64,000 nt of DNA from assembly GCA_036244855.1 (NCBI GenBank), contig BQKZ01000066.1, positions 194,486 to 258,485 on the forward strand. The letters are read 5' to 3'. Below the pieces are notes generated by a model. It worked only from the letters and a program-made list of their open reading frames with translations, was not told the DNA's origin and searched no databases. This document shows positions 3,301 to 64,000 of the stretch, one piece after another. A program made the position numbers and the translations under genes. The DNA comes from Temnopleurus reevesii (Eukaryota; Echinodermata; Echinoidea; Temnopleuroida; Temnopleuridae). The first letter of the stretch is position 1. Every line of letters starts with the position of its first letter.

Positions 3301-5973
3301 AAGCTGTATTCATATTTGCATTGCAATGTTCATGATTATTCTATTTTTTCTCTCTTTTCAAAGTGCGTGCTGCCATGGCTGAGCGCAGGGTCTTTATCGG
3401 ATTCACAGACGTCACCAACGAGAACAACTTTGAATGGATTGATGGCTCCCCAGTAAGTATCTGAGACCAGGGTGGTGTTTCACCAAGTTACAAAAGACTT
3501 TAAAAACAACTTTACTAACGACTGGTTTAAGATCCTGTGCTGAATGATCGAGAATCTTACGCCCATTACACTCGTTTACATGCTCCTGTTCTTCTTAAAG
3601 TTGTGCGTAAAATTAAGAACGATTTGGTGAAACGCCGCCTAGGGTTGTGTTTCATTAATCTGTTCGTACATCTGTGCACGACTCTAGGAACAACTGGTGA
3701 TCCTCTCACAGACTCAATGATAAGCCTTGGCGCAGAATCACACCGAAGAAAGGGTCACCAGTCGTTCATAAAGTCATGCATAGATCTAAGCTCAGCTTTC
3801 TGAAACACAACCCTGCTTCCACGAAACTAAGCAGAAAGTTTTTATAGTTTCAATAAACTTATCACAAAGTGGAAATCAGTTAGGAGGTCACTTTTTTATG
3901 TTTTTGTAGATTTGAGTGCCTGCACGTCCCTATTTGCTTATACCTGTCAACAAGTCTTTGTTCTCATTGTCTTTTGATTTATCATGAGAAATGTTCAAGT
4001 TTTAAAATTTGATATTGATAATATTAAACTTCTTATTTATTTTCATGTAATGATTAGAACTAGAATGAACTAATATTATTTTTGGCCTCAGACACTTTAG
4101 GTCCTACAGGTACAATGTCAATAAGTGCAAGGAGGCTATTTTATTTTTGAAAATGAGATCTTTATGGTAAAATAATGGGATTTTTATTGATTTTTCATTG
4201 ATGTGTGTAATGAACAACAGTGAACAATGAAACTTGCTTTCTGTCTTGAAGGTGAGCTTCACCAACTGGGCCCCATACCAGCCAGATGACTGGAGCGATG
4301 AGGGCCAGGACTGCTCCTACCTCAGATACGAAGAGAACGAAGAGGGCTTGTGGGACGATATCAACTGCGATAAAGCTCGCTATGCTTACATCTGCAAGAA
4401 ACCGAAAAGTTAGTACTCCTTTTCTAAAATAATTTTCAATATCTGATTTTCTTAAATACTGTGAGGACTGTTCAATTTGCACACAATTTATCAACTGAAA
4501 ATAACTAATTCTGTAATATTTGTTTTTCTTTAATCATCATTTTTTGCTATGTTTTCCTTTTTCTCACAGTACCTGGAGTGACTGCCCCTCCACCAGCTGT
4601 GCCAACACGTAAGTCATACATTGTATATACATGTACCTGCACTTATATTTTTTGTCACAATTTGCTGCATAAGGTGGTTAAAAACATAAAAGTATAATTT
4701 GTAACACAACAAATACACTGTATTATGTCCTTGGAAACACTTTATATTGATGAATGGTGTGAAATATTTAAAGCTGAAATGTATAGGAAGTTTTATGAAT
4801 GTTTGCTTTACAGACATGATAGCTGTAAACGTCACATTGACATGTTTCCTTGTTTCAGAAAATTTATGTGAGATCCTTGTGAACAAAAGTTGGACCAAAG
4901 TCAATTTTAGGATTTTGTTTCTGGAAATTTTGCATCTAAGAGCCAACAGTGAAAATTTTCATCCTCTTTACCTGTCTATACCGTTAACCACAATCCTTGT
5001 GATAACAGATTAGATTATGACTGGGTCATGTGAAATGATCTTTGCGCTCAAGCTAGCCACAATTTGCCACATGGCACAGAAACAAACTTTAAAACTCATC
5101 ATGAATTGGCTCCCTTTTGGAATAATACAATTGTAGGCTTGTAGGTGCACTGTACATAGGAGCTAAGAGTTAAAATCTCTCTTCTTTCTTGCCTTTAACC
5201 GTAGCCGTTTTCGATCCTCGCTGTGGTAACGGATGGGAATACGACACCGGATCGGGTAACTGCTACCTCTTCAAACCTACGGATTACAGGACCTGGGACG
5301 ATGCGAGAATGCAGTGTAAAATTGGAGGAGGAGAGCTGCTCAGCATTGTCGATCAGACGGAACAAACCTATATCAATGGTAGGCTCATTGAACGGATGAT
5401 ATTGATGATGATGATGATCATGATGATCATGATGATAGTAATGATGATGATGATGATCATCATCATGATGAAAATGATGAGGAAGGCTGCTTTGCATTGT
5501 CAATCATACGGAACAGACCTATATCAATGGTAGATATAGTAAAAATATTTACAGTGATAGCGAATGGATGTTGATGATAGAGATGATGATGATGATAATG
5601 AGGGGGATGAGGAGAAAAGCTGCTTAGCATTGTTGATCAAAAGAATCAGACCTATATCAATAGTTAGTAAGTACAGTGAAACCCTGATGGTGAGAGGATG
5701 ATGTTGATATTGATGATAATGATGATGAGGATGATGATAAAGAAGGTGATGATGATTAAGTTGATGATCACGATAATGTTTACGAGGATGATGTTGATGA
5801 TCATATTGATGATTGAGATGATGATGATAATGTTCATGGAAGGCTTTTGACCAAGCCTCCTGGCTTTTAGGATTCCCCACTTTCTTATTTTGTTTTATAT
5901 ATTATGTACTGTATTTTTTTACATTGTTGATATTTTTTAAGAAAGTGAAAATAAATGAATTGAATTGAATTGA

Positions 5974-40800: not shown

Positions 40801-43800
40801 TGCTGTGTACTGTGTACTAGGCCGAAATTGAAGACCTGAAACCAGAGTCTGTGCCTGCAGACTAGGAGGGTGTTGTTCAAAAGTTGCAATTGATTGCAGG
40901 TTGCAGTTGATTGGAACGTGCCAATCGAAATCATTCTTTCATGCGCGTCTTATTGAATGCGCCTGCAGTGCGCGAATGAAAATGCATATTATAATTTGCA
41001 AAGTTGCACTTGATTTTGAAATTGGTCATTTATTCTATTTCTATTTATTTTCCCTTTAGCATCATGCCAGAAGTGCCCAAAAGGATGGTCTTTGAGTGAT
41101 GATATGTGTTACAAGCTGTTCACGACCTCCGTGAACTATGACCAAGCGGTCCAGGAATGTGCATTGAATGATGGAACACTCGCTATGCCTAAAACAGCAT
41201 CCGTTAATGTGAGTATAATCTATGTGTTGTGTACCGTATTTTGTTTATTCTATGGATATGAAACAGAAACGCCCTTTTACTAATCCAATACCACTTAATG
41301 GCGAAAAGTGAATCATATTAACTTAAAGGTGTAAGATTAGTTTCACACTGAGAGCCGCAACCCTTAGGTTTCAGAAACTACAACTGCCGTGAACTATGAT
41401 GGGACTCTCCCTATGCCCAAAAAACAGTGTATGTTAATATAAGTATAATCTACATGTTGTGTACCACGTTTTGTTTATTCTATGGATATTAATAGTGAAT
41501 CGTATTAACGTTTAAGTGTAAGATTAGTTAGGTTCAAACTTAAAGTCAAAACCTCAGGGTTTCAAAAACTACAACAGCCTTGAACTATGATGGGACTCCC
41601 CCTATGCCAAAAAAAACAGTGTATGTTAATATAAGTATAATGTACATGTTGTGTACCATGTTTTGTTTATTCTATGGATATACAAGTGAATCGTATTAAC
41701 GTTTAAGTGTAAGATTAGTTAGGTTCAAACTTAAAGTCAAAACCTCAGGGTTTCAGAAACTACAATAGCTGTGAACATAGCATAAAACATATGCATAAAG
41801 ATTTAATTGTAAACCCGCTTATTCAAAAGAATTAGGACTTTTGGTGCATGTTTAGGGCCTTGCTTACACTTCACATTTATTGAGTTTTGTGTTTAGTGTT
41901 TACGTGGTTGTGTTATCATGAAATGCAGAAAAAGATGATGAAAAAACATGATTATAGCAGAATCACGGTCATTGGTATCGTATGAACATGACTGTGTTTT
42001 CTTGTGTGCGTCTCAGGATCTTTTGGGCATATAGAGAAATTTGACCAAAGACTCACCATTCGGGTGGGGGGGGGTGATGATAGGATGAGTCTTACAACAA
42101 TCGACAATTGTATTACCCAGCTTTGTTTGAATTGATTTCTACTTTATTGTCTTCTTCACAGAATCATCTGCAGAATCTTCTTGACGATGCAAATGCTGGA
42201 AATGCCTTGATAGGTCTTCATGATAAGATCAATGAAAATAAGTTTTATTGGATTGATGGTGACGAACTAACAACTTCACAAGCGTAAGTGAAAGCATTTT
42301 GTTCTGTTCTTCACTTAATGGTTACACATCTTTGGTTTTGTGGCCTATTTTGATACTGGAACAAAGATAAGATTTAATTATCTGCTATAAGAGTTAATTA
42401 TCTCTCCCTGTGGGACTGTTCACACATTGGACTTTGTTTAACAGTGAAAGGCATCCTTTATAAATAGCATACCTGTCATCCAAATTTTTAATCTGAACTC
42501 ATCGTGCAAGGTGTCATGCCTACATGTACATGTACACAATGAAATTGCATTCGGTACAGTTTGTGGGTTTTTCTTTTGTTATGCAAGGCCAATTCTGAAA
42601 GCTTTCTACCAATGTCAGGTATTGGGGTGAATATCACGGCTTTAGGAGATATTTTTTTTTGTGAGATCAGGACCATTCTGATGAAATTTTGACACTTGAC
42701 AGGTATGTTGTAGGATGGCTATACATGTAAATGCATTTGGTTAATATTAATTTGTAAAATGCACAGATTCTGTAACCCATGAAATTCCATTGGGGAGTAA
42801 ATCTCATTGGGAATGAAATGTATGGGAGCATTTTAGCAACTGTTCATACATGGAATTCATTGGGAGATATTTGAACGCTGTAATTTTACCCCTGTTGTAC
42901 CCTTAGTGTCCTAGCTTTTTTGCAGAAATATTTCTAGTTTTCCCAACGAGTTTCTTTTTGAACTTTTTAGAAAGCATGATAATATCACAGAAAACTGTCA
43001 AAGAAACAATCTTTGTGCACTGTACATACCTTATCGTGAAAATTAAGTTCTAACTGATTTTACATTATTCCTCAAATTGTCTTACATATCTTAAATTTTG
43101 CATTTGCAAATTACATTTTTGTTTGTTGTGTATTTTGATTATAAATGAAAAAACTAATATCTATTATATAATGAACTGCACTTCCCAATTTTGCTTGTTT
43201 ACAGATAAATCTTGATATTTAGATTTTCAGAGAACACTTACAAAACAGTGACTTACAAAACAGTGAATAGTTCCTCTCCATTTGATGGCATGTATTGCTC
43301 GACAAACTACATAGTCTGTTGAGTGTCCTAATGTACTTATCCCTATTTGGAAGTTCAACTGAAAATTACTCTATTTGGTTTAACGAACCAGCAATTAGAT
43401 ATTGAAAATAAATCTGCTGACCAGCCATCAATATCATTAATGAGGAAGGTTCTTTCATAATCATGCTTTTCAAATAATTCAACTCACTGAATTTTCATAG
43501 TCTTATTCTTAGTAATATTTGGCATCTTCATGAAAATGACCATAAAATTATTTTTATTCATCTTGATTTTTCAGAATTTCCTTATGGCCAGTTCATTTCA
43601 TAACATTTTCTGCACATTGATCACCTAACATAAGGTGTAAGATCTGAGAATACTAATATCTTTCCCAGTATAAGCATTCATTTCAGCTGCAAAACATTGA
43701 CAGAATAAGAAATAATGTATTTTAGTAGTGGATTGTAGACCAGAGCACTGCCCACTGTAACTGATATAATTACATTTAACCCCTCAAGGCTGCTGACATT

Positions 43801-46800
43801 TCTGCAGTTCTCCAGCAAATTTAAGAAGAACAAAGAAGAAGAAGCTAATTAACCACTGACATTTTTTATAGGCTCTGTAGGAGTAGATTGATTCCAGAGG
43901 GCAGCAGGTCATATTATAGCTCTCATTGCTATCATAAATTTAATTTCACATGAAGTTTTCATACATTCTAAAAACAAGCTTGGGATTAGTTCATGAATGA
44001 TGAATGGTAAAATTAGTTTCCCATTTTGTAGGTAACTAACAAAATGATGTCATCTGACCAATTTAATGAACCAATCACAAAGCTGACTATTTGGTTCCTG
44101 TCTGATAAAGTAAATAATAGTAGAACAAGGCTTTGCATGTTGTTTCACCAGAATATGTTTTAGGTGTTTGATCTGTCCAACATTAGGACTAACAGAAATA
44201 GTTAGTTTTCATTGCCAAACTGTTTTTGTGTTTCTGACCCACTCCAGCAAACCCATTGCTTCGTGGCAAACAAAGAAGATGACCGTTTGGGAGTGGGTGA
44301 ATTATCTTCAGAGTTACACTTTATTTTGATATTTCTATTTGACTTTTCACAAAGTTATTAACAAATTTTCAGTGACCAGAAAATAATTCTGTGATATTGA
44401 AGTTTGAATTTCATTTTTGTGGAATCTTTCACAAAATTATGCACTACTTCACGTTAAGGAATCAGAATAGAGTCACGAAAGAATTACAATTCTGTAGAAT
44501 ATATTTTCAATTCACAGATTAATTTTATAATTTTATATGCACACCCATCTTCAAGTAAAACATTATCAATTCCATATTGAATGTGGACAAATATGAAAGT
44601 TTGCATTCTTTTCTTTCATCACGTCTCTTCAGTCATTGGGGCATTGGAGAGCCCAGTGATGTTTCAGGGGCGGCTGATTGTGTAGCTCTAAAAGATGATG
44701 GGTATTGGAATACCTTTACCTGTGATATAGGTTCTTATTACATCTGTGAGAGACCAAATGGTATGTTCTTGGATACTGTGACTAAAAATGGCGGCTAATT
44801 TTGTACTCTCAGTGTATCTATGTTCTGGTATATCGTCTGTGTGCATGTGGACCCAGCCTGTTGTAACCTGTATGATGATCATTTGTGGTTGTTGCAATTA
44901 AAAAGATTATGTACAAAATTACTTGCAGCAAATGATATGATAATCAATAGTGTATAAGTGTCTTGTAATCGTGTGACACGTAACTTCACTGTATCTATGT
45001 TCTGGTATATTGCCTTGTTGCATGTGGACCCAACCTGTTGTAACCCATATGTTGATTATTTGTGTTTGGCGCACTTAGCAATTATATACACTTAAAGGAA
45101 AAGTATACGATTTTTACCAATTATATATAAATGTCTTGTCATCGCAGTACTACGTGTACCCACGTTATCTATGTTCTGGTATACATATAGTATGTGTGCT
45201 TGTGGACCCAGCCTGTTGTAACCTGTATGTTGATCACTTGTGGTTATTGCAATTAAAAAGATTATGTACGAAATTACTTGCAGGAAATGATATGATAATC
45301 GATAGTGTATAACTGTCTTGTAATCAAGTGACACGAAGCTTCACTGTTACTATGTTCTGGTATATTGCCTTGTTGCATGTGGACCCAACCTGTTGTAACT
45401 TATATATTTGTCATTTGTGTTTGGTTCAGTTAGAAAATGTATACATTTACAGGGAATTAGTGTGATCCTAACAAATTATTTATAAATGTCTTGTGATCGT
45501 ACGATATATACCCTCAATGCATATCTATGTTCTGATATATAGTCTTTGTGCTTGTGGACCTAGCCTGTTGTAACATATATGTGTTTATCATTTGTGGTTG
45601 TTGCAATTAAAATGTGATGTCAAAAAAAGAGCTTGAGCTTTCGATCCTAGCAGAATCTTAATCATAACCAATTAGAATGTATTAAAATTACCTACTTATA
45701 TATTATAACCAGACTTTTTATGATTTTAACCAATTATGTAATGTCTTGTAAACTTGTATAGTGCTAGCATATTCTGAAAATGTGAGTACATGTGTATGCA
45801 CCTAGCCTGTTATAGTCTATGCTCATCGTAAGTGTGAAAGTAGTATATATCCTATCTAGAAAATGCATACAAAATGTATAAAAATGAATTGATAGGAATT
45901 GATCACACCCATGATTATGAGTATACAATATGGTTTTCCAATTATTCAAATGTCCTGCAATGTTCTTATAAGCAGCGGAATATAATATACATGTACTACC
46001 ACTCGCAGTTATGTATTACCATACAGTCTAAATGCAGGAGTATACATATAGGTCCCAGTCAGCTTTATTATTTATTAATTGGAATTGAAAGAAGTGTATT
46101 TTTTGGTTCGGGTATGTAATCGAAATAACTTTATTACAGGAATTCATTATGAACAGGCATATGAGTATAGCATGATTTAAAATGCCTTAATTGTAAACAT
46201 TCTTTTGAAAAGCAGCTTAATTTGTTCTACCCGTGTATCCGCCCAGCCTGTTATAGTCAACATATATAGTTTATTATTATATAGTACAGGTAGTAAACTC
46301 CTTGTCTGAAATGAGTGCAGAAATTTATTATACCCATAGTATAATTGTGTATATATATATACAATCTCTATCAATTATGTAAATACCTGTAATCATTCCT
46401 CAACATGTTGATTCTTAATTAGCAAACATGCTAGAATCATTAAAGATATTTTCTTCACCAAGATGTTCGACTGACTAATAATTGGAAACTGCCAGATGAT
46501 CAGGATTTTAGGCATTCTCCCTCAAAGAAACATGTATTCAACTTAATTTGCTTGACTTCTTCTTGCTGAAGCATAGTAAATTCTTACTTACTCTGCATTA
46601 CTGCAGCAAAGTATGGTATGCATAAAGTGAACTATTCATTGTATTCTTAATCATCACAATTATTTAGCTGTAAAGTTAAAGTCAGAATTATTTTTTAATT
46701 GTTATCACACTAATCGCTCAGATCTATTAATAACTATGATCCAGAGATCCTGGCAATCCAATTCTCCTCAGCTTTAAAGTGATTTACAGATTATCAAAGA

Positions 46801-49800
46801 ATTCTGATTTGCATTGTAAAAGTCTCTCTCCTAATTGAAAGTATCATAACTTTTTAAGACCTTAATGTGACTTGAAAAGTTACATTTCTTCTTTTGTGTG
46901 TGTTTACTCACATGAAGTATGGGATTATGCTGATAAATTTGATAGCTGTAAATTTTATTACTGGACACTCCCCCATTGTAAAGCTATGTTACTTTGGAAT
47001 TTAATCCTTTAAATTTTATCGACGTAAGCAGTCAACATTCTTTTCATATTACATACGGTTCATGTTTTGATTAGGGGGAAAGGACTTTTTGGTTTTGTTT
47101 AAATATTCATCATTTAAAATCAATACGTTCATATCTACCTGTGATAGTGGTTTAACAATTACATCATGCTTGGAATTGGAAAGTATATTGGATATAAATC
47201 TTTGGATGGACTAGCAAAGGAAAATATTTTCCCTTGGGCTTTTCCCCTCTGGAAGATAGTATTGCGAGCCCATCCTTAGATATGTAACTCCAATAAAGTT
47301 TCTCACTGTTTGGGATATTTGAATATTGTCCCAAATCTGAATTCAATGGGAAAACATTGTTCACCATACTTTGCACCTGAAAATGCTATTTAAACATTTT
47401 GCTTAGATAGGCACAATCATTCTCATGACATATCCTTAATACTTTTACCAATTACAAATCACATTGTGAGGATATAATTATACTCCTTATTTGTGCATAT
47501 TCATGTTTTACATATCGTGCAAGAAATTTTTCACATGATGTATTGAGAATACCAATGCATTTCTTTGCATACTGTCTTTCCCCATTTCGACCCTCATCGT
47601 TGAATCATATTACGATTAATATTAATCCATGCTTTTACAAAGTTTCCCAATAGACCAGTTCACTAAGTGATGCAAACTTTATGCATACCTCTAACACAAA
47701 GACCGTTCTTGACAACCCAAAAGTTTGTCTGCGACATGTGCAATATATCAATAACTAATGCATGCAAACTAGATTCAATTAGTTCAATTGTCAGAACAGG
47801 TTTAAGAAATACCACATAACTGTATAATGTTTGTTTGCAAGAATCGTACATAAATTTGAATCCATTAGTGAACTGGTCTATTTCAACCCTCATTGTAGAC
47901 TCATATAAAATACCTATCAAATCATGCATTTACATTAGTTTTATCTCTTTCATGTCATCGTAGAAATTGGTATGGTTCATCACCTAACAATGCTGGTTCA
48001 GGCGAAGACTGCGTGGTTCTGAGAAGGGCTGATGGCCTGTGGAACGATCGGGCTTGCACCATTAAGTTTAGACACTTATGCCAAAGGAGCAATGGTATGT
48101 TTTACACAAGAGATTCGCACTGAATGCGACGTAGTCCTGTCTCGCACTTGCCGACTCGCACTTGCGCAGTCGTGCCTTATTTTATTTCTTATTTCTTATT
48201 AATTAGAAACATTTGTCTTTTTGCATGTCATCGTAGAAAATGGAATTCAGGGGAGCCTAACAATGCCGGTTCGGGCGAAGACTGCGTGACCCTTTTGAGC
48301 AACACTCTCTGGAATGATGTCTATTGTACCAGATATTTTTATTTCTTGTGTGAAAGGGATAATGGTATGTTTTTTGTTTCGCTTGATCGCTATGATCAGG
48401 GGAAAAGAAAGGGATTTGATTTTGATTTTGTAATTTTATTTGTCAGATAAAACATCCAAGATACCATGACAATGATATCCCATGAAAGCGAGGTTGAATA
48501 ATAAATTTTGATTGTGGGCGTATACAGAAAGACATGACCGCAGAAGCTCTAGCATCAATGCTAAGATAGATTTAAGATTTGTTCATATGGCCATTTCCAC
48601 TTAAATTTGACTAATCACAGTATAATTATATGTAAAAATATGAAATATATGTAAAAATATGAAATACAACCTTAACAGTATTTTTCAGATGTACATCAGA
48701 TTTATATACCTTTTAAGCCTTTTGTCTTTATGTGCCTGTTGTTCCAGAGCAACGTATTATTATGAAGCATTCTTCATTTGATACTAGAGTATAGCCACCA
48801 TCTATAACCATTCGAACCAATATGAATATATATATATTTTTAATTTTCAATCTTGAATCGGAAAGTGAATGCAGAGAACTTATTACATAGAAATGTATAT
48901 AATTTGCTTTTCATGTGGGAATATATATCATAGTCCAATATCGATATAATCCAAAATAACTATAGTTTTCCACTTTAGTTTACTATATTAATGCACTATT
49001 TGAAATTCTATGAAAGAATCTTTATGTTTTGTGTTTTGCTACATGCTTACAAACTTTTATTATCACAAGAACATGATGTAATTTGCTATATATGTGTATG
49101 ATATAATTTGCTAATAATGACAGTGCATGTTGATAAAGTCTAATAGGCCAATACTTTATAGCGCATAGTGAAATATCTTATATGTATGCAAATTTATCTG
49201 CTTTGTTAAATCCGGCTTTATTAACATTTTGTTTATACACATTGTATCACATAGTGCTTGTTCGGGAACATTATATTGACCCTAGATACAAATATGATAT
49301 ATAGACATTCATTATTGATAGATATTGCTGACTCGATCAAATGTGTTCATATAATCTTATAGGCAGTCATTGTCCATATATCACATACAAGTTCTATATA
49401 CAACCCTTGAAGGTTTTTTTTTGTATAACCGCAAAATCATTATTTTTAAAAACTTGAATGCCTTGAATGTTTTGCCAAATGAAATAGATTATTCATTATA
49501 GACTACAGTATGTAAACAGTTGAATCAGTAAGTAGACAAAGCATTTTTCACTTGGAAAGTCATCACAAATTTAGAATTAAAGCAAACTTAAGAATTCAAA
49601 TTGTTCAATATTCTGAGATATATATTGAATAATCAGAAACTTTGACCTTTCTAGTGTTTCCAAAGCATACATCCTTATTGTATCATGATTTAATTCATTT
49701 TCAATTGTTCCTATCCTTTTAAATATAATTCTATTTAAGGAGTATGATTATCAATAAGTAACTATACGCTAAAGCAATATTTAGTCTAATACATTGCAAA

Positions 49801-55800: not shown

Positions 55801-58800
55801 TTTCTACATTATTAGAGCATTAGAAAAGAGAGCAGTTAACATAAGAATTATTCATTGTGAATGAAGGTTTGGCACTTTTAGCTACCCATACTTAAACCAC
55901 AGATTTAGACCAGGGTTAACTTAAACCTCGCTATCGGAATACGGGCCTCTGAGTTTATACTCAAAATAGCACTACCTATAGAGGTGTGCCAATGTGCAAA
56001 AATGAAGACAAAACTACGTAATTTTTTATTATTAGATTGATTGTGACTATGATAATTTTCTGTTTTTATTTCCTTCAATCCGTTTGTAACGTACAGATAC
56101 TGAGGTGGATGGCTCATTTGAATGGGTGGAAGGTAGTTCTCTCAGCTACCACAACTGGGACGTAAACGAGCCAGTAAACAGAGCAAATTCTGAGGACTGC
56201 TCCTACGTTTCCACAGGTAGGTCTAGTTTAACCTAATCAGGACAAGAATTATTTTGCAACAATTTCAATCACTATTCCTTAACTAAATTGGCAACACTGA
56301 CATTTTGTATTCACTTTTTAAAACATTCCTTTTCAAATATGTTACCAAATTGAATCTTCATCATCAAAAGTGTGTTTAAATTTCAATGCAGCCAATTTGC
56401 TTGAAAAATAGGGATTTTTTCATGTTTCATGTGTTGCAAATTTTAGAATTTGTGAAATATTACGGGATTACTTTCATTTAAAAATACAAACAGCAGATGG
56501 CTGCACAATAGTGGTATAGAATTTGTTTTATTTCTTGTCATGCATTTGGTATATTTTAAAGCCCTGCATCAAATGTTATCTGAACCAAAACACAAAATTT
56601 TTATCATTCTGAAAGAGTTAAATTCACCCCCCTCCCCACTTACGGAGCCAACCACACACAGAAGCATGTTACAGATTCTTTGAGGTATTGGCGAAGAGCC
56701 AGTTATAAGGGTTTAAACAATTCTAACCAATATTTCCCCAACTTACGATAGAAGAAACACTAATTGTCAAATGAAGTTGAGGTTATATGTTTTGTATTGA
56801 TGTTTTTTTTATAACATTTAGGAAGGAGGCATACAGCATGCAAATGAATTTGATTGTTAATTAATCTTCGATGAGGAGAGAGAAATGGAAAGAATGACCA
56901 TTATTTTGCATTTCCTGGTCATAAATTGTCCTTGAACTGATTCACAAATGAGAAGCAGCAAATTTGATTTCAGGAAATTGAGTTTTCTCTTGCATGCTTG
57001 CTATTCTTTTGACTGGGTTACTACTTGTTTTATGATTCGAGTCATCATTCATTTGCCCTTTGCAGTTTATTTTCAGGCCATATAGGCTTATAATAGAATT
57101 TGTTTGTACAAAATGTTGATTTTGGATGAATTTCGGGCCGTCTCATTAATTCTAACCTGGCATCCCTGCAATCAAAAAAAAAATTCAAAACTATGTACAA
57201 ATACATCGCGTTTATGTATCTTTTTTTTCATCTCTTTCTAGGTGATGGAACGGGGAAATGGAGTACTCAAGACTGCACATTAAAAAGCTCTTACATATGC
57301 AAGGCCAGAGCAGGTGAGGCTCATTCTGTTTCTTTATGAGGCCAGAAAAAGTTGTTTGGTTGTCCTCCACTGACTAACCTGCTGAAATTTGTCTGACCTG
57401 AACTTTCAACCAAAATTTGTATTCCCATTGAAAATCACACGGAATTCATAGGTTGGCATGGAAAATTACCAGAAATGACAGTTTTGGTAGCTGAAATGCT
57501 GACTAATTTATTTGACATGTGGAAGTTGCTGCAGAAGTCCTGTTAATTATCTTCTTGTACACATCATAATACACAAGCATGGCATCAAATTACTTGAAAA
57601 CACTCCATTGTAATTTTCAGAGAATACCAAAATGGGATGAAAGAGCAATCTGCTTGATCATTTGAACAAAAAAACAAACAACAATCCCCTTGTTTCTGTA
57701 TCAAAGTGAACTAGCCACTCCTTCAAATTTGATTGCAGTTTTTATTTATTCTTACATTGAATTGTGTGACAAGTACTTAAACGTCAGAAAATTTTCCTTA
57801 TTTGTTTCAAGTATCCGAAAATTGAATAAATGTATTATTATTTTACAATGACTATACAGTTTCCTTCTAGGCTGCTTCAAGTTTCTGATTATGTAAAAAA
57901 AAAATAATTAAAAAAAACCCACTTTGATTAGTAGTCAATGATAATGAAACAAACAAATGAATTGATTAATTAAATTGTTATGGTGATTATATATTCCTCG
58001 TCTGCTTATAGCAATTCTTTAAAGATACATCTGTATGATTATTAAAGCATAATTATTTATACATCTATTCTTTTCATCAAAAGGTACATTAATTTCAGAT
58101 CTAGATCCAGCAGTCGGTAAGTTTGTTTTATATACATTTGATGTATTTTTAATGTTTTCATATTAGTTAAAAGTTTATTTGAGATAATCTTAAAATTAAG
58201 TTAGCTATTATAATTTTCCATTTATAAAGTGCATGTTTACTGGAAAATTGCAAAAAAGGAGATTTGTCTAAATGCAGAAATATATTAAGGGAAAAGTCAC
58301 AGAAGATTATCATGAACCTGACAAGCATAGCTTTTACAAAGGTCTCCACTTTCTTTCGTTGTATAAGATTTTCAGTTCCACTTATATTGCTCATCTATCA
58401 TTTTATCCCTTATATGTATTTGTAAAAAAAAATGCTGAAATAACAGTCACTTGATTGGAAATTTGGCAATTTATTCATTCAAACATCATCAACATATACA
58501 GTTAACATTCTGTTCATATTACATTTTGTTCCTATATATTACACTATCTTGAGCAAATAACACAAATTGTAAAAAGAAATTTAGCAATGGGTTTATTACG
58601 ATTGATGAAACAAAATATATATGTGAAATAAAATAAAGAGTTTGATTGTAATGTATTATCTTTAATTTGAAGATTTTTACTGAAATGAATAATAAAATTG
58701 AATTGAAATTGAATTGATGAATATGATTTTTATTGTAACTTTTGATAGGCATACGTACATGTGACGATGGCTGGACCCTGAACGGAGAAAGTTGTTATTA

Positions 58801-61800
58801 CTTTGACGGCAAGGGACGGAAATTTGATGATGCGGAGCTTCATTGTATTGAAATCGGCGGCCATCTTGTCAGCATTCATTCCAATTTAGAGCAAAACTTT
58901 CTTTCAAGTAAGATTTCTCTAATGTTCACTGACGTCAAGAAATATATACATTTTTAGTATGCAATATGACAGATTGATAAAAAATTGAAAATCTAAAGTT
59001 ATTTTGTAGTCGCTGAAATAACAGAAAAGCAGCTGAGAATACATTGAATTTATACGTCACCATGTTAAAGTTTTATTACGTGATACTCTCTAGTTTTTCT
59101 GTGTCACTGGGAGAAAAATCTTTAACCTAATGGTACTGTTCCAAGTGGATTCTACGTACTTCACTTAGCAAGTCTTTAAAATTTGCATGCATAGTCAGTA
59201 GCGATAATTGTAGTATAACTTTAAATTTTTGGTGCTGTTACAGTCCGTGCTAATATGGGAGGAGCGTACCTCTGGATCGGTTTACATGACATGTCGACAG
59301 AGAATGTTTTTTCATGGACAGACGGGACAAAGGTAAGTCTTGGTAGAGTTGTTCGTAACTCAAACATGTTCTTGCACTAAAATGCTTATTCAATATAGCG
59401 ATAGAGTAGGCCTGAATTATATATCCATGAAGTAAAACAGAAATAGGGACACAGGGGAACCCGTCCATGGAATTACCACGGTCTCATTGAATGAAGAAAA
59501 ATCAGATGCATAAGTAGACAAAATTTGAGCAAAATTGGACAAATCCAATCCAAGTTACGAATTTATTAATTCTCAAGGATATCACGATCTGCGCGATCTA
59601 TCCAAGTTGTGACAATTCCCTATCAAGTTAATTTCATAGTATTATTTTAGTTATTGTCATTATTGTTGTAATTATTATTACGGGAGAATTGAATTGTTTA
59701 TGATTTGGACTGTTCGTTAATTGTTCTAGTTGGACTACCAGAACTGGGCTAGCGGCCAACCTGATAACTGGCAGAGCGGGGAGGATCACGTTCATCTGAG
59801 AACAAATGAGCTTGATGCCGGCAAGTGGAATGATATTGATGGTAATAGTTGGACCATGCAGTCCATCTGCAAAAAGGGCAGCAGTAAGTGATCTATTTAC
59901 TCATTTGTGTGTGTTTTTTTGTTTATGTGGTTATGTGTTCGTTAATTGTTCTAGTTGGACTACCAGAACTGGGCTAGCGGCGAACCTAATAACTGGCAGA
60001 GCAGGGAGGATCACGTTCATTTGAGAACGAATGAGCTTGATGCTGGCAAGTGGAATGACATCGATGGCAATAGTTGGACCATGCAGTCCATCTGCAAAAA
60101 GGGCAGCAGTAAGTGATTCATTTATTCAGTTATTTGTTTTTTATTGTTTGTTTATTAATTTATTTGTATGTGTTTATTTTTTAGTTATTCATGTATTCAT
60201 TTATTTTTTTGTTGATGTCAGCAAGTGGAATGACATTAATGGCAGTAGTTGGACCATGCAGTCCATCTACAAGAAGGGCAGCAGTAAGTGATATCTATTT
60301 ATTCATTTGTGTTTTTTTTTAAATTTGTTTATTTCTTCATGTTCATATTTGTTTGATGCTGGAAAGTGGAATTACATCAATGGCAATAGTTGGACCATGG
60401 AATCCCACTGCTTGAATGGCAATCGTAAGTGATTCATTTATTCATTTGTTTTTTGTTTCTTTCTTTATTGATTTGTATGTTTGTTTATTCATCTATTCAT
60501 TTATTTGTTTGGACGGATGACATCGATGGCAATAGTTGGACCATGCAGTCCATCTGCAAGAAGGGCAGCAGTGAGTCATGAATTTATTCCTTTGATTGTA
60601 TGTTTGATGTCTTCAAGTGGTTCTACTCATTGAACGCATGTTCAGCATCTTAATGAGGAGCACTTTTATGGGGTGGTGCTTTAAAAGTGCTATGACATTG
60701 ATGGCAATAGTTACCATGGATCAAGAATATTTTATTTGTGTGTTTGTTTGTTTGTTTGTTCATTTTATTTACTACATGGTTTTTAGTTTCACCTCTTTTT
60801 TTACTCTCAATTAATATTTTCAGATAGATTATTCACTCAAATTTGGTATGAGATCATACCAGGGAGGTGTTTCACCAAGGTAAGAAAGACTTTACGTACG
60901 ACTTTACGTTCGACTGGTATCCCTTCTTGCGCTGAATGCGCGTAATATTATGAATGATTACGCACAAGAAGGGATACCAGTCAAATGTAAAGTCGTGCAT
61001 AAAGTCTTTCTTACCTTGGTGAAACACCTCCCAGGAAGTGAAGAATGGAACATAATAGTGATTAATTGAATGGATCTGGAAAATGTAAAGATAAATTTAC
61101 TACTCAAGAAGCATATACTTACTGCTTTCTTTGTCTTTTTTTTTTCATATTAGGCGGTGGTACCCCAGTGGATCCACCTATCATGCCAACACGTAAGTAT
61201 CAAAATGGAATTCTGTGGCATATCATTGATTTTAACCTTTTGATATCTGGATTTAGGTCTAATCAGATATTTCTTGGGAGCGTCGTGGTGGAGTGGTTCG
61301 GACTCTCGCCTCTTAACTAGAGGGTCGGTGGTTCGAATCTCTCCCAGGGCGTTAATTTCCTTCAGCAAGAAATTTACCCATAGTGTGCTGCACTCAACCC
61401 AGGTGAGGTGAATAGGTACCGGCAGGAATTTATTCTTCTAAATGCAGAAGCACCTACTTAGCAGCTATGCTATGGCCGGGTAATAATATTAGATAATTTG
61501 TCTCGCGCCTCTGAATAGGTGACTAGAGAGATGGCGTGTTTAAATGCTATATATTATTATATTATTTTTATATCAGCCAGACAGAAATGAATATTGAGTG
61601 GTTCGAAAAGCCATTAATAAAGTAAAGAGGCCAACACAAACAAATATCCTGAAAATGGATTTTTTTAAATCTCTAGACCTCTTTTAAAACTTATCATTTT
61701 TTGTTTTTAATTGGCTTCACAGTGAACACTATATTAACAACGATCTTAGTTGTTTTCTCTTGTTGGGCACATTTTGATCTGTGGGTTTAGCTCCCACATA

Positions 61801-64000
61801 ATAATACTTGTATGGCTAGACGATTTGCTGGTTTTTTGAAGATCTCATTTAATTTTTCTCATACTTTTAAAAATCCTTATGTTCATTAAGCAAAGTCTTG
61901 ATCAATGGTTGCAAACCGAAAATGCTTGTATTTTCCGATAATTTACTTATGATCTTCTTCCCGCGAACGCTATTTTTATCCAATCCAAACTAATTTTACA
62001 AAACTATTTCAAAATATTTTGCTTGTGATTATGCACAATTTATAGTGATAGATGCATACGTCTAGCTAATATTTATGGAATAGCTAATTCATCAATTGAA
62101 GAGAGTTGATCAGTTGTCTTACGATGTGCAAATGTAGAATATAGATAGAGGGATATTTATGGAATAGCTAATTCATCAATTGAAGAGAGTTGATCAGTTG
62201 TCTTACGATGTGCAAATGTAGAATATAGATAGAGGGATATTTATGGGATAGCTAATTCATCAATTGAAGAGAGTTGACCAGTTGTCTTACGATGTGCAAA
62301 TGTAGAATATAGGTAGAGTGATGTGTCAGCTGCTGTATATCGCTAGTTTTTATCAGACTATAGTGATTATAGACCATACTCATTGAGACACCTGATCAAC
62401 TCTCTTCAAGTATTCTTCACTACAATAAATCTCTTTTAATCCAAGTAATTTGTCTTCAATCCTCCTCCAAATTCAGCTAAGTTCGACCCAAGATGTGGCA
62501 ACGGATGGGACTTTGATTCGACGAGTCAGAACTGTTACCTCTTCAGATGGACCGATTATCTGAACTGGAACGACGCCAGGGAGTACTGTCGAGTGCAGGG
62601 TGGGGATTTGACTAGCATTACAAGTCAGGCTGAACAGGCGTACATCAATGGTGAGATGATTTTATCTCTTAATTCTCTGCCTTTGCAGAGGCATTATTCT
62701 TTTAGTTTGGTGTCTGTCCCAAAGCCCCCCCCCCCCCACAAAAAAAGTTCTTCAGATGCCCTTAAAATACCAACCCTCTAGAAATGGCTGATCTGAACTT
62801 CTATTTGCTTTTCACCAAAATTGAAAAATCACAGTAAAATTATAAATAAACGTGGGAAAGATGACCTGAAAATATGTCTTCAGATGCCATTTTGCTTCTC
62901 ATCTCCTTTTATGGCCTTATTTTCCTCATGGATTGTTCAAATTGTGTTTGAGTGCGGTTGAGTGCAGGGTAGCTATTTTAAGAGCATCACAAGTCAGGCT
63001 AAACAGGGAAACATGAACGGTGACGCACTGATAATATGTCAATTCTTATGCACCAAACCCTTTTCAGACAATAAAGGGGAAGTCCGTCCCAAATACTTTA
63101 CTATTTTAATGAAAGGAGAATAATTTGAACAACTTACCAAGAAAAGAAAATGTCTAAACTGGTACGATGCCAGGGAGTACTATCAAGTGCAGGGCAGGGA
63201 TTTGACCAGCATTACAAGTCAGACTGAACAGGCATATATCAATGATGAGGAACTTTAATTTTTTCAATTTACTTACCTTAAACCCTGCCGTAATCAAGCA
63301 ACTATAAATGTGAAGTCCATCCAAGATATTTCACAATGTCACTAAAAGGATAATAATTTGAACAGCACATCAAGGAAAGGAGATATTAAAACTGGTACGA
63401 CGTCGGGGAGTACTGTTGGGTGCAGGGCGGGGACTAGACTAGCATTACCAGTCATACGGAACCGGCTTACATCAATGGTGGCAAACTTATACAAGTCAAA
63501 TAATTGCCATTGTCAACAGTAGGGTAATGCCACACACATGAAAGATAGAAAACTACAATTGCACACATTATAGTTATGCCTACAACTTGTTGTGTACCTA
63601 TGATATGCCAAAATAATAACCTCTATGAAGTATTGGTCGAATGTAGTCCAGAATATTTAATTCAAATAAAAATCTATTCTATCATAATTCATCTTGACAC
63701 CAATGGTATCATGATACTCCTAGCGTATTACGGTACCACACACACACACAAAACATAAGAGCACATACAGTGCGCACTTCAATACACTGCCACACCATGC
63801 GGAATACGCACTGAGAGAGACTCTTGCACTATTGGTCAACGAGGGGTTAACGGCTGTTTTGAATTTTGAACGCACGGTCCATTAGTTCGAGGCCCGAATA
63901 GAAGAATTATTATTGGAATAACTATAAATGCGCCTATCATGACCAATCTTTGTGCTTAATTGATTGGTGATAAGTTCTAACATTTAGTACTCTTCATCAT
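37769..64000 (+). CDS. Gene B: tandem paralogous multi-CTLD receptor (3' partial)
   Basis: Visible coding exons from the signal peptide to the first exon of CTLD5 (last visible exon ends at 62650). One exon from each alternative set gives 1,906 nt, i.e. 635 codons plus one base, with every splice phase matching. Domain order: signal peptide, CTLD1, CTLD2, CTLD3, 18-nt linker, CTLD4, 39-nt linker, CTLD5 start. No CysR or FN2 domain precedes CTLD1. Exon lengths for CTLD3 end to CTLD5 match gene A closely. CTLD1 has three alternative last exons and CTLD4 has two. The transmembrane part lies outside the window, so membrane anchoring is inferred from gene A. Confidence 0.85.
38378..38378. other. 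Single-N contig join between two copies of exon 1
   Basis: The sequence restarts after the N with ttttttttgcttgagtgcat, as at 37731, so the second exon-1 copy begins at a contig edge. Confidence 0.75.
38416..38461 (+). CDS. Gene B exon 1: signal peptide, copy 2
   Basis: 46 nt with the same protein sequence as copy 1 (one synonymous ccg/cca change noted) and the same donor gtaact. The 5' flank is nearly identical, while the following intron is clearly diverged with indels. Either an alternative first exon from a tandem duplication or a second haplotype placed in tandem at an N join. Confidence 0.65.
38819..39148. mobile_element. MULE-like MITE with 9-bp target duplication
   Basis: 330 bp. 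Ends GGTAGGCACTACATGGACTC and GAGTCCATGTAGTGCCTACC are perfect 20-base inverted repeats that continue imperfectly (gggagacaccgcgc / gcgcggtgtctccc). Flanked by GTTTTGTTG at 38810-38818 and 39149-39157. A 9-bp duplication and long inverted ends fit Mutator-like elements. GC-rich ends stand out from AT-rich surroundings. No transposase. Confidence 0.85.
39158..41059. other. First intron of gene B, no further exon seen
   Basis: Mostly AT-rich. A GC-richer patch at about 39780-39920 has an open frame (39746-39997) without CTLD features or usable splice sites. 40870-41030 carries a degenerate inverted relation to 28200-28330. The distance from exon 1 to exon 2 is about 2.6-3.2 kb depending on which exon 1 is used. 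Confidence 0.4.
41060..41208 (+). CDS. Gene B exon 2: CTLD1 first part
   Basis: 149 nt, phase 1/0. It encodes [20 protein letters not shown], then [20 protein letters not shown]. It has the N-terminal cysteines and the MCYK strand; LAMPKTA replaces the usual LVSIHxx helix start, as is common in CTLDs with shorter loops. Follows the signal peptide directly. Confidence 0.88.
41388..41760 (+). pseudogene. Tandem decayed copies of the end of CTLD1 exon 2
   Basis: 41388-41439 and 41578-41630 (period about 190) contain gtgaactatgatgggactc / tgaactatgatgggactccc and ccctatgcc..aaaacagtgt, worn versions of the exon end. Both are followed by copies of the parent's intron start (aagtataatctacatgttgt, ttttgtttattctatggata). 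A third intron-only trace begins at about 41754. Confidence 0.75.
42162..42283 (+). CDS. Gene B exon 3: CTLD1 middle
   Basis: 122 nt, phase 0/2, acceptor ttcttcacag, donor gtaagt. It encodes [20 protein letters not shown] then [26 protein letters not shown] is the WIGL core. It ends with gc, so any third exon starting with t or a yields Ala. Confidence 0.87.
42284..44632. other. Intron of gene B, no gene seen
   Basis: 2.35 kb, AT-rich, no repeats with clear borders and no CTLD-like open stretch in any frame. Confidence 0.4.
44633..44760 (+). CDS. Gene B exon 4a: CTLD1 ligand loop, alternative 1 (EPS)
   Basis: 128 nt, phase 2/1, acceptor cgtctcttcag, donor gtatgt. It encodes [20 protein letters not shown] then [11 protein letters not shown] and [12 protein letters not shown] and WNT replace EPN and WND, so the sugar site is non-canonical. 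It is one of three exons (also 47964-48094 and 48237-48364) with the same phases and role. Since 128 is not a multiple of 3 and entry and exit phases differ, two of them cannot be joined in frame. Confidence 0.85.
44812..45700. repeat. Satellite-like tandem repeat, about 176-bp unit, five copies
   Basis: Units start near 44812, 44989, 45164, 45344 and 45520, each with ctatgttctg(g/a)tata, gtggacc(c/t)a and cctgttgtaa. Units 1 and 3 share attaaaaagattatgtac, and units 2 and 4 share tattgccttgttgcatgtgg, so a two-unit (about 353-bp) higher-order period is visible. Worn traces (cctagcctgttatagtc, cagcctgttatagtc) continue to about 46270. Confidence 0.85.
45701..47648. other. Intron of gene B, worn satellite then no recognisable feature
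   Basis: The first ~600 bases carry diverged satellite units. The rest is AT-rich and featureless. 47578-47645 is loosely repeated at 47880-47940 (tttcgaccctcatcgttga / tttcaaccctcattgtaga) on the two sides of a MITE. Confidence 0.4.
47649..47882. mobile_element. MITE with AATAGACCAGTTCACTAA ends
   Basis: 234 bp with perfect 18-base inverted ends (AATAGACCAGTTCACTAA left, complement right). The interior (gttcttgacaac..aaaagtttgtctg, gcatgcaaactagatt) resembles 1660-1770 in gene A's intron, so the family is dispersed. It inserted just before alternative exon 4b. Confidence 0.7.
47964..48094 (+). CDS. Gene B exon 4b: CTLD1 ligand loop, alternative 2 (SPN)
   Basis: 131 nt, phase 2/1, acceptor catgtcatcgtag, donor gtatgt. 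It encodes [20 protein letters not shown] then GLWNDRAC and [12 protein letters not shown] stands in place of EPN and WND is kept. It is open throughout, with intact splice sites and all expected cysteines, so it looks functional rather than decayed. Confidence 0.8.
48237..48364 (+). CDS. Gene B exon 4c: CTLD1 ligand loop, alternative 3 (EPN, WND)
   Basis: 128 nt, phase 2/1, with the same acceptor context as 4b (catgtcatcgtag) and donor gtatgt. It encodes [20 protein letters not shown] then TLWNDVYC and YFLCERDNG. This version has the full mannose-type EPN/WND site. It is only 142 bp from 4b, so the pair arose by local duplication. Confidence 0.83.
48365..50083. other. Intron of gene B, no gene seen
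   Basis: Very AT-rich. Short open frames at 49731-50138 show no domain. Confidence 0.4.
50084..50230. mobile_element. Foldback element, gtgtttcat family
   Basis: Left arm tgtttcataaagctgttcac and gactggtgacc; right arm gcaccagtcttg and tagctttatgagac. Related to 3468-3815, 13000-13120 and 60862-61033. Confidence 0.45.
50231..51002. other. Intron of gene B with a small inverted repeat
   Basis: 50830-50945 has inverted pieces (gcaaagacgtcttaacttct...agcatagacatattaac / cgtctatgctaggaggt...gaagacatcttagc). No coding signal. Confidence 0.35.
51003..51226 (+). CDS. Gene B exon 5: CTLD2 first part
   Basis: 224 nt, phase 1/0. It encodes [40 protein letters not shown] and TVWIGLSDT. One exon covers the N-terminal strands to the WIGL core. 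Acceptor ctttgtag, donor gtgagt. Confidence 0.9.
51358..51570. repeat. Retroelement-like 3' tail ending in (TTGAAC)n
   Basis: Ends gaataaatgaacttgaactt followed by two more gaactt units. aataaa plus a short repeat tail suggests a 5'-truncated non-LTR element. Sits in the intron after exon 51003-51226. Confidence 0.5.
51979..52064 (+). CDS. Gene B exon 6: CTLD2 middle and ligand loop (QPD)
   Basis: 86 nt, phase 0/2. It encodes [20 protein letters not shown] then WAPNQPDSR (last codon split). Galactose-type QPD triplet. Acceptor tttcaaaag is weak but the phase fits. Confidence 0.83.
52065..53505. other. Intron of gene B, no gene seen
   Basis: 1.4 kb with no recognised repeat or exon. An open frame at 52791-53096 has no domain features. 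Confidence 0.4.
53506..53618 (+). CDS. Gene B exon 7: CTLD2 C-terminus
   Basis: 113 nt, phase 2/1. It encodes [20 protein letters not shown] then WSTAVC and SFVCERPTG. The WND position reads WST, so despite QPD this domain's calcium site is incomplete. Donor gtgata is off consensus but the phase matches the next exon. Confidence 0.83.
53777..53945 (+). mobile_element. tRNA-like SINE fragment
   Basis: gcgtcgtggcgtgcgcctg (A-box-like) and gtgggttcgaagcctgg (B-box-like), then accgtctttcggatggagac. Different body from the SINE at 61276-61560. Ends near a (ttc)n run. Confidence 0.45.
53946..54538. other. Intron of gene B, no gene seen
   Basis: AT-rich, with T and A runs. Nothing recognised. Confidence 0.4.
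54539..54751 (+). CDS. Gene B exon 8: CTLD3 first part
   Basis: 213 nt, phase 1/1. It encodes [40 protein letters not shown] and ESWLGLSG. Three worn copies of its 3' half follow at about 180-bp spacing. Confidence 0.9.
54806..55284 (+). pseudogene. Three tandem copies of the CTLD3 exon 3' half
   Basis: 54806-54918, 54972-55087 and 55165-55284. All keep ctgattc(a/g)gga and a donor (gtgagt, gtgagt, gtaaag). Copy 1 has a small deletion and an inserted tga near the end, copy 3 has a small insertion before the donor, and copy 2 reads best. None has the N-terminal half or a strong acceptor. The second and third cysteines are missing, so none can replace the parent exon. Confidence 0.85.
55636..55947. 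mobile_element. MITE with long inverted ends, nested in an older repeat
   Basis: Left arm from 55636: ggcccatattccgatagcga, then ggtttaagttaaccctggtc; right arm ends at 55947 with the complement. Arms are about 62 bases with few mismatches. The surrounding repeat also exists without the insertion at about 62-200 in gene A, which supports the boundaries. Confidence 0.75.
56097..56216 (+). CDS. Gene B exon 9: CTLD3 middle (EPV)
   Basis: 120 nt, phase 1/1. It encodes [20 protein letters not shown] then [20 protein letters not shown] replaces EPN, so sugar binding is uncertain. The WLGL core came from the previous exon. Confidence 0.87.
56217..57241. other. Intron of gene B, no gene seen
   Basis: About 1 kb, AT-rich, no recognised repeat or coding signal. 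Confidence 0.4.
57242..57313 (+). CDS. Gene B exon 10: CTLD3 C-terminus
   Basis: 72 nt, phase 1/1. It encodes [20 protein letters not shown] then KARAG. Paralogue of gene A exon 314-385 (same length, phase and GKW(S/T)T..C pattern). WST replaces WND in both genes' CTLD3. Confidence 0.88.
58099..58116 (+). CDS. Gene B exon 11: 18-nt micro-exon linker
   Basis: 18 nt, phase 1/1, between atttcag and gtaagt, encoding DLDPAVG across the split codons. Its position equals gene A's 33-nt linker exon 1473-1505. The frame also closes without it, so inclusion may be optional. Confidence 0.55.
58749..58907 (+). CDS. Gene B exon 12: CTLD4 first part
   Basis: 159 nt, phase 1/1. It encodes [40 protein letters not shown] and QNFLSS. 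Matches gene A exon 1914-2072 in length, phase and motifs. Confidence 0.9.
59244..59332 (+). CDS. Gene B exon 13: CTLD4 middle
   Basis: 89 nt, phase 1/0. It encodes [20 protein letters not shown] then DGTK. It ends in phase 0, feeding either alternative last exon. Gene A equivalent: 3364-3452, also 89 nt. Confidence 0.9.
59730..59883 (+). CDS. Gene B exon 14a: CTLD4 ligand loop, alternative 1 (QPD)
   Basis: 154 nt, phase 0/1, acceptor ttgttctag, donor gtaagt. It encodes [29 protein letters not shown] and [11 protein letters not shown] is the galactose-type triplet, with WND kept. The usual EDC cysteine is His and the partner cysteine after WND is absent, so one conserved disulfide is lost as a pair. 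154 is not a multiple of 3, so it cannot be spliced together with exon 14b in frame. Confidence 0.88.
59955..60108 (+). CDS. Gene B exon 14b: CTLD4 ligand loop, alternative 2 (EPN)
   Basis: 154 nt, phase 0/1, with the same acceptor (gttcgttaattgttctag) and donor gtaagt as 14a, 225 bp downstream, with a 71-base intron between. It encodes [20 protein letters not shown] and GKWNDIDGN. There are nine base differences from 14a: six silent and three replacement (Q to E, D to N, G to R). Two of the three convert QPD to EPN, the mannose-type triplet. Splice sites and frame are intact. Confidence 0.87.
60220..60725 (+). pseudogene. Decayed partial copies of the CTLD4 last exon
   Basis: 60220-60283, 60354-60424 and 60511-60570 keep the end of the exon (aatagttggaccatg, tccatctgcaagaagggcag) with donor-like gtaag or gtgag. 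A trace lies at about 60689-60720. The ligand-loop half is absent in all, and the last cysteine codon is changed to Tyr in the first. Interspersed with (ttta)/(tttg)-rich DNA. Confidence 0.82.
60862..61033. mobile_element. Foldback MITE, gtgtttcac family
   Basis: Near-perfect hairpin of about 170 bases: left gggaggtgtttcaccaaggt, then aagaaagactttacgt, and cgactggtatcccttcttg; right arm is the complement ending aaacacctccc. Best preserved member of the family at 3468, 13000 and 50084. Confidence 0.8.
61154..61192 (+). CDS. Gene B exon 15: Pro-rich linker between CTLD4 and CTLD5
   Basis: 39 nt, phase 1/1, acceptor catattag, donor gtaagt. It encodes [13 protein letters not shown]. Gene A counterpart 4570-4608 has the same length and the same ending. 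Confidence 0.82.
61276..61560 (+). mobile_element. tRNA-derived SINE (plus strand)
   Basis: ggagcgtcgtggtggagtgg (A-box-like), then ggtggttcgaatctctcc (B-box-like), body ttcagcaagaaatttaccc and gtgctgcactcaacccaggt, ending in an AT-rich (tat)n tail near 61545-61565. Same family as the minus-strand copy at 9876-10168. Not counted as a tRNA gene because of the long non-tRNA body. Confidence 0.75.
62069..62320. repeat. 84-bp tandem repeat, three copies
   Basis: Units start at 62069, 62153 and 62237 with atatttatgg(a/g)atagcta and contain gaagagagttga(t/c)cagttg. Nearly identical. An inverted trace (ctgatcaactctcttcaa) follows at 62391-62409, just before exon 62477. Confidence 0.88.
62477..62650 (+). 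CDS. Gene B exon 16: CTLD5 first part
   Basis: 174 nt, phase 1/1. It encodes [40 protein letters not shown] and QAYIN. Paralogue of gene A exon 5205-5378 (174 nt, same phase). The rest of the domain is beyond the window. Three worn copies follow. Confidence 0.9.
62957..63480 (+). pseudogene. Three decayed copies of the CTLD5 first exon 3' half
   Basis: 62957-63020, 63154-63244 and 63387-63480, spaced about 200-230 bp. Recognisable pieces: gccagggagtactatcaagt, gcattacaagtcag, gaacaggcatatatcaatg. They show frame breaks, lost acceptors and, in the third, an in-frame tag. Upstream of each is a shared attttaatgaaaggag or similar intron piece, so the duplicated unit included intron. Confidence 0.82.
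63481..64000. other. Intron of gene B at the window end, no exon seen
   Basis: Short (ca)n at 63736-63748. The next CTLD5 exon (WIGL core) has not been reached. Confidence 0.4.

Follow-up and report, generated by a model that had tools for sequence, protein, structure and literature searches.

Two adjacent exons of a sea urchin lectin-domain gene as a candidate splicing switch of a sugar-binding site

Results

The window, meaning the whole stretch of DNA that was analysed, is 64 kb long (C66:194486-258485) and runs to the end of its contig in an assembly of 558 Mb and 10,433 contigs. In a profile scan, its plus strand carries two tandem CTLD genes with matching domain order, gene A upstream and gene B downstream of it. 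No known RNA families or tRNAs were found in the 64-kb window at the settings used. The exons discussed here belong to CTLD4 and CTLD1 of these genes (Table 1). Other elements lie around them. Interspersed repeats with many genome copies are present in the introns flanking the CTLD4 exon pair of gene B (59453-59597 and 60611-60686), and inverted repeats at 60859-61035 and 55636-55947, with arms of 79 and 73 nt at 90% and 93%, are possibly small mobile elements. The intron ahead of CTLD5 contains an 84-bp tandem repeat in three copies that are 97% alike (62069-62322).

Table 1. Features of the two tandem genes, numbered by window position unless another sequence is named
Feature	Position	Strand	Description
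Gene A CTLD4 third exon	4252..4408	+	157 nt; QPDDW; single; outgroup for exons A and B
Gene B CTLD1 second exon	42162..42283	+	frame open into X1, X2 or X3
X1	44633..44760	+	128 nt; alternative CTLD1 third exon, gene B; EPS, AAD, WNT; Ca2+-site residues partly lost by motif
X2	47964..48094	+	131 nt; alternative CTLD1 third exon, gene B; SPN, GED, WND
X3	48237..48364	+	128 nt; alternative CTLD1 third exon, gene B; EPN, GED, WND
CTLD4 first exon	58749..58907	+	159 nt; gene B
CTLD4 second exon	59244..59332	+	89 nt; WIGLHD; constant, predicted to join A or B
Tandem duplication behind the A/B pair	59711..60149	+	225-bp unit in two copies, 92% alike
Exon A	59730..59883	+	154 nt; phase 0 to 1; QPDNW, probably the ancestral type; codes for the second half of CTLD4 in gene B
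A-B intron	59884..59954	+	71 nt; GT..AG; AG-free run of 64 nt ahead of acceptor
Exon B	59955..60108	+	154 nt; phase 0 to 1; EPNNW, probably derived; alternative to exon A for the same half of CTLD4
Relic R1	60212..60283	+	3' half of exon and donor, first half missing; conserved last Cys changed to Tyr
Relic R2	60353..60424	+	3' half of exon and donor, first half missing
Relic R3	60499..60570	+	3' half and donor, first half missing; aligns only from about 60517 onwards, and in that part any difference from A or B is silent
Linker exon 3' of A/B	61154..61192	+	39 nt
CTLD5 first exon	62477..62650	+	next coding exon past linker
Y1	L010:2389-2516		gene A CTLD1 third exon; EPN; open from second exon
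Y2	L010:2849-2988		gene A CTLD1 third exon; EPN; open from second exon
Y3	L010:4078-4205		gene A CTLD1 third exon; EPN; open from second exon

The central feature is a pair of exons, A and B, both in gene B. A first-pass annotation of this DNA had described two intact, adjacent exons of equal length for the same part of CTLD4, and both were found again, with 59332 as the end of the preceding exon. Its count of differences also proved correct on recounting: 9 of 154 bases differ (5.8%), six silently and three with a change of amino acid (Q10E, D12N and G17R from A to B, in exon numbering), and the first two of these convert QPD to EPN. The common acceptor context and phases that it had reported are equally real, the final 19 bases of the preceding introns being identical, and GTAAGTGAT directly follows exon A and exon B alike. 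As to the reading frame, followed from the constant second exon to the linker, A alone or B alone leaves it open through the linker exon into the next CTLD, while A and B joined, or both skipped, give stops. Since each exon is 154 nt long, joint inclusion or skipping shifts the frame. On these grounds, a functional mRNA should be able to hold just one of the two, as the annotation had proposed for in-frame transcripts. The exons are thus homologous, adjacent, equal in phase and of frame-shifting length, the marks by which a mutually exclusive pair is recognised, and we infer that they are spliced in as alternatives.

The further suggestion that the 71-base intron sterically blocks joint splicing held in part. 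The length of the intron speaks for it, as do three of its four yTnAy motifs, whose distances to the donor are 16, 20 and 42 nt; the fourth, at 62 nt from the donor and 9 nt from the AG end, speaks against it, being beyond the threshold of about 50 nt between donor and branch point given in the available part of PMC7969005. That threshold is derived from vertebrates and the branch points are motif matches. The same portion of that paper describes distant branch points for OGDH exons, and the excerpt of a human catalogue of mutually exclusive exon clusters reports possible steric interference in 57 (9%) and a length not divisible by three in 377 (60%) (PMC5740500). The intron probably hinders the joining of A to B. 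The frame is the firm part of the predicted exclusivity, and steric hindrance fits it without being proof. The same observations bear on a different reading, in which inclusion of both exons is a regulated poison event that shifts the frame, triggers nonsense-mediated decay and lowers protein output. Early stops do arise from joining A and B and from skipping both. However, the branch-point-like motifs mostly disfavour A-B joining, and this reading leaves the motif change in exon B unexplained. We give it little credence.

The differences between the exons were compared with those expected by chance. Nei-Gojobori estimates for the pair are dS 0.278 and dN 0.024 (dN/dS 0.086, or about 0.09). 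The probability of six or more silent changes among nine is 0.0012 by the binomial; simulations at kappa 1, 2 and 4 put it at 0.00065, 0.0036 and 0.00825. These values are uncorrected for the pair having been picked beforehand for its motif, and so are the next two: three random non-silent changes would include exactly Q to E and D to N with a probability of about 5e-5, and the placement of all three (3/3) within the nine-residue binding loop has P = 0.004. Over the 214 aligned bases of the tandem unit, the exon differs at 9/154 and the intron parts at 8/60, the latter divided into 0/19 ahead of the acceptor and 8/41 past the donor. Non-silent sites are less divergent than intron sites (Fisher p = 0.005), and silent sites, of which 6 of about 26 differ, are not distinguishable from them (p = 0.34). 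In the 3' half of the exon there are four silent and no non-silent differences. The A/B pair as a whole looks constrained.

Which exon carries the silent changes would matter for this reading. If they fell on A, then A would be constrained, and B, its motif aside, might be drifting neutrally. If they fell on B, then B would be constrained despite gaining a new motif. The partial copies R1 to R3 just downstream are relevant here. Compared with B, the non-silent and silent changes number 5.0 and 3.0 in R1 and 9.2 and 3.8 in R2, each over half an exon, and 0 and 1.0 in R3 over 17 alignable codons. R3 (60517-60570) may have been copied from B very recently. The relics carry B's base at sites 105 and 114 in 3/3 and at site 108 in 2/3. 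As the relics themselves may derive from B, the silent changes fit either exon, and an assignment of silent changes to exon A by way of the relics was dropped, R3 being unalignable at site 90 as well. The relics were likewise rejected as an unconstrained control for A and B: R3 has no non-silent change, and Fisher tests of relic changes against A/B changes were not significant (p 0.19 to 1.0).

The non-silent changes are easier to orient. CTLD4 of gene A, the upstream tandem paralog, has no exon pair, and its third exon serves as the outgroup. Among the proteins retrieved, the best match of that exon is Amphiura filiformis P0028 (residues 95-142, 56%), which reads QPDNW with G ahead of ED and is 49% identical to A and 43% to B. 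Another protein, P0005, has QPDDW and QPDNW. Because A's residues are found in gene A CTLD4, P0028 and P0005, we take QPD, Trp and Gly as most likely ancestral, with E, N and R most likely having arisen on exon B. Across wider sets, 40 alignments of exon A face QPD in 21 cases and EPN in 9, and 41 alignments of exon B face EPN in 16 and QPD in 15; the top match of B, P0020, reads NPD. The protein searches found no protein from the same species or a close relative, and the matches were 23-47% identical. They included Amphiura, Anneissia, Lytechinus and Glandiceps alongside many fishes, molluscs and arthropods, a range compatible with an echinoderm or one of its relatives.

Local duplication is frequent in this window. 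Under the criteria used (offset 100-600, length of at least 60 nt), there are 21 tandem duplications in 64 kb, or 3.28 per 10 kb. Twenty control stretches of 10 kb contain 22 between them (1.1 per 10 kb), and L010 contains 3. CTLD exons are touched by 15/21, against 7.2 expected (p = 0.00055), and by 15/19 against 8.3 expected when only the CTLD-bearing parts are considered (p = 0.0015); these tests used 41 hand-picked exons and AT-rich introns align less readily, which makes both indicative only. Several of the duplications copy a piece of an exon together with its splice site. Among six groups inspected, one copy is broken or truncated in four (13168, 19659, 24743, 9083). The other two are intact on both sides: X2/X3 and 16256/16547, the latter probably an artefact. 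That the A/B pair arose by duplication is therefore nothing unusual at this locus; less usual are the preservation of the pair and the change in its motif.

Because short tandem duplications are so common here, an unused, decaying exon B is a live rival to a working pair. Exon B would then be a young and largely unused copy that has yet to decay, with A in nearly all transcripts. The number of duplication clusters that touch CTLD exons, the frequency of broken copies in the inspected groups and the three partial copies of this same exon all speak for it, as does the probable placement of all three amino-acid changes on B. On the other hand, B is open with its acceptor and donor intact, its amino-acid changes fall without exception in the binding loop and yield precisely the alternative canonical motif, and gene B keeps other intact alternative exons. 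We regard this explanation as unlikely, though not negligible.

We also weighed an assembly artefact, in which two alleles of one exon had been set side by side. Near-identical copies are indeed kept apart in this assembly: C6387 (L005) and C412 (L006) hold the same CTLD gene stretch, 94% alike over 1.67 kb and probably two haplotypes or a recent duplication, which is close to the divergence of A and B. There are also false-looking duplications at N positions. One (16256/16547, spanning 16256-16835) is 99.65% alike around a single N at 16546 and another (11096/11951, spanning 11096-12261) is 100% alike around the gap at 11713-11950; both are probable assembly artefacts rather than exon pairs. 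Yet the A/B region contains no N, the copies differ in the intron parts (8/60) and at silent sites (6 of about 26), and three further diverged copies follow. Outside the locus, no near-identical copy of the exon was found among the nine matches listed (42-47%; 26/26 candidates scored). A 1,981-base query had its full match on C66 alone among 40 scored of 828 candidates, the other 45 of the 46 rows lying on two repeats, an outcome that leaves some room for a second haplotype contig. To an artefact we give even less credence than to a poison event.

The arrangement has counterparts in CTLD1. In gene B, X1, X2 and X3 each continue in open frame from the second exon into CTLD2. Gene A has Y1, Y2 and Y3 and two partial copies besides, the open frame of Y1 to Y3 covering the join from the second exon only. 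All of these exons (6/6) are free of stops with a length that leaves 2 on division by three, and over all 15 pairs pS is 0.61-0.97 and pN 0.21-0.46. Between the members of either array, the profile scan showed no further first exon of a CTLD. The CTLD1 arrays look like old, constrained alternatives that would not be joinable in frame, which raises the likelihood that A and B work likewise. What is new beyond the A/B pair is thus the presence of three intact, long-diverged CTLD1 third exons in each of genes A and B. Selection of a "sugar-site cassette" by splicing may therefore be a recurrent property of the two genes.

With either exon, CTLD4 is a C-type lectin domain by the Pfam profile PF00059 (68.0 bits when A is used, 71.2 when B is; curated cut-off 22.6). 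Both exons have the residues of Ca2+-dependent sugar binding, namely QPD or EPN, GED or RED, and WND, in alignments with CEL-I and selectins. The canonical inner Cys pair (EDC, WNDxxC) is absent from both, which read EDH and WNDIDG; the paralogous exon 4252-4408 keeps it. Compared with solved structures, exon A alone has the GalNAc lectin CEL-I (1wmy) as its top match among 58 sequences, with E up to 1, and exon B alone has L-selectin at the top and CEL-I third, among the best 60 of 64. The score of wild-type CEL-I is 30.1 bits against A and 27.5 against B. For 4wqq, a mannose-binding EPNH mutant of CEL-I (PMC10377782, in the portion available), the scores are 21.8 bits with A and 26.2 with B. 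When the whole domain is the query, multi-domain receptors lead the solved matches, with lymphocyte antigen 75 first, and rank above CEL-I.

The first-pass annotation had read the pair as a switch between galactose and mannose specificity, by the motif rule known from mannose-binding protein. That rule is not simply transferable. The Trp after the motif is kept in both exons (QPDNW and EPNNW), and in CEL-I, according to the available text of PMC10377782, a change of QPD to EPN alone was insufficient to turn GalNAc into mannose binding, with Trp105 to His also needed. CEL-IV, in the same text, has an EPN motif and binds galactose through a Trp. Since exon B keeps the Trp and EPN alone failed to convert CEL-I, a clean galactose-to-mannose switch is unlikely by this analogy. 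A weakened or broadened Gal/GalNAc preference for exon B, perhaps with fucose- or mannose-type ligands, is the likelier outcome.

Discussion

The sequence of events that best accounts for these observations would begin with a 225-bp tandem duplication, which copied the third exon of CTLD4 and with it the code for the primary Ca2+/sugar site, from the motif loop through WND. Exon A would have kept the probably ancestral QPD-Trp site of galactose/GalNAc type, while exon B would have gained E, N and R inside the binding loop to give an EPN-Trp site. One exon would be used per functional mRNA, as the length of 154 nt forces by way of the frame and as the short intron probably helps to ensure. The A/B pair would then be the youngest case of an arrangement that also exists in CTLD1 of gene B and of its tandem paralog. 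That A and B are interchangeable sugar-site exons, used as alternatives and differing in binding, is the reading towards which we lean, if only modestly. Anatomically the splicing switch has good support; biologically it is unproven.

A broader view, to which we hold tentatively and with somewhat less than even confidence, is that the two tandem genes code for combinatorial lectins in the manner of Dscam. The sugar-site cassette would be mutually exclusive in more than one domain, allowing 3 x 2 forms of gene B and at least 3 of gene A. Such cassettes would keep arising by short tandem duplications that touch exons, and the QPD/EPN pair would be the youngest to change the chemistry of the binding site. 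Should both exons be in use, a single invertebrate gene could change the chemistry of a sugar site by splicing, a natural echo of an engineering step in CEL-I. If this holds, then together with the CTLD1 arrays it would allow a germline lectin receptor to vary its glycan recognition without extra genes.

Mannose-receptor-type proteins (MRC1, MRC2, PLA2R and the Amphiura filiformis "macrophage mannose receptor 1-like" protein P0028) have serial CTLDs, as does gene B. They are the best matches of the three-domain stretch of gene B and, among solved chains, of the whole CTLD4. Identity is 23-41% among the 43 matches of that three-domain stretch, and the comparison covers the part of gene B between its two ends.

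Known mutually exclusive tandem exons provide a second comparison, drawn from the parts of the sources at hand (PMC7969005, PMC5740500, PMC9013439). Those of Dscam, myosin heavy chain, OGDH (4a/4b) and the human catalogue in PMC5740500 are adjacent, homologous and of equal length, like A and B. They also encode the same part of a domain, shift the frame on joint inclusion, and have a short intron with branch-point-like motifs near the donor. Unlike them, A and B exchange the Ca2+/sugar site of a C-type lectin domain, and their exclusivity is read from sequence alone. A literature search over titles and abstract openings, with few subscription journals covered, found no description of mutually exclusive QPD/EPN lectin exons among the papers listed.

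The closest parallel for the binding site itself is CEL-I from Cucumaria echinata (1wmy). It shares QPDNW, ED followed by a non-Cys residue, and WND with exon A, and in the printed alignment it is without the inner Cys pair, like both exons. The two key changes of exon B are those of the QPD-to-EPN step engineered in CEL-I, as given in the available part of PMC10377782. Unlike the mannose-binding EPNH mutant, exon B keeps the Trp and adds a change of G to R. And unlike the EPN and EPNH mutants, which were made at the bench, A and B are a natural pair within one gene.
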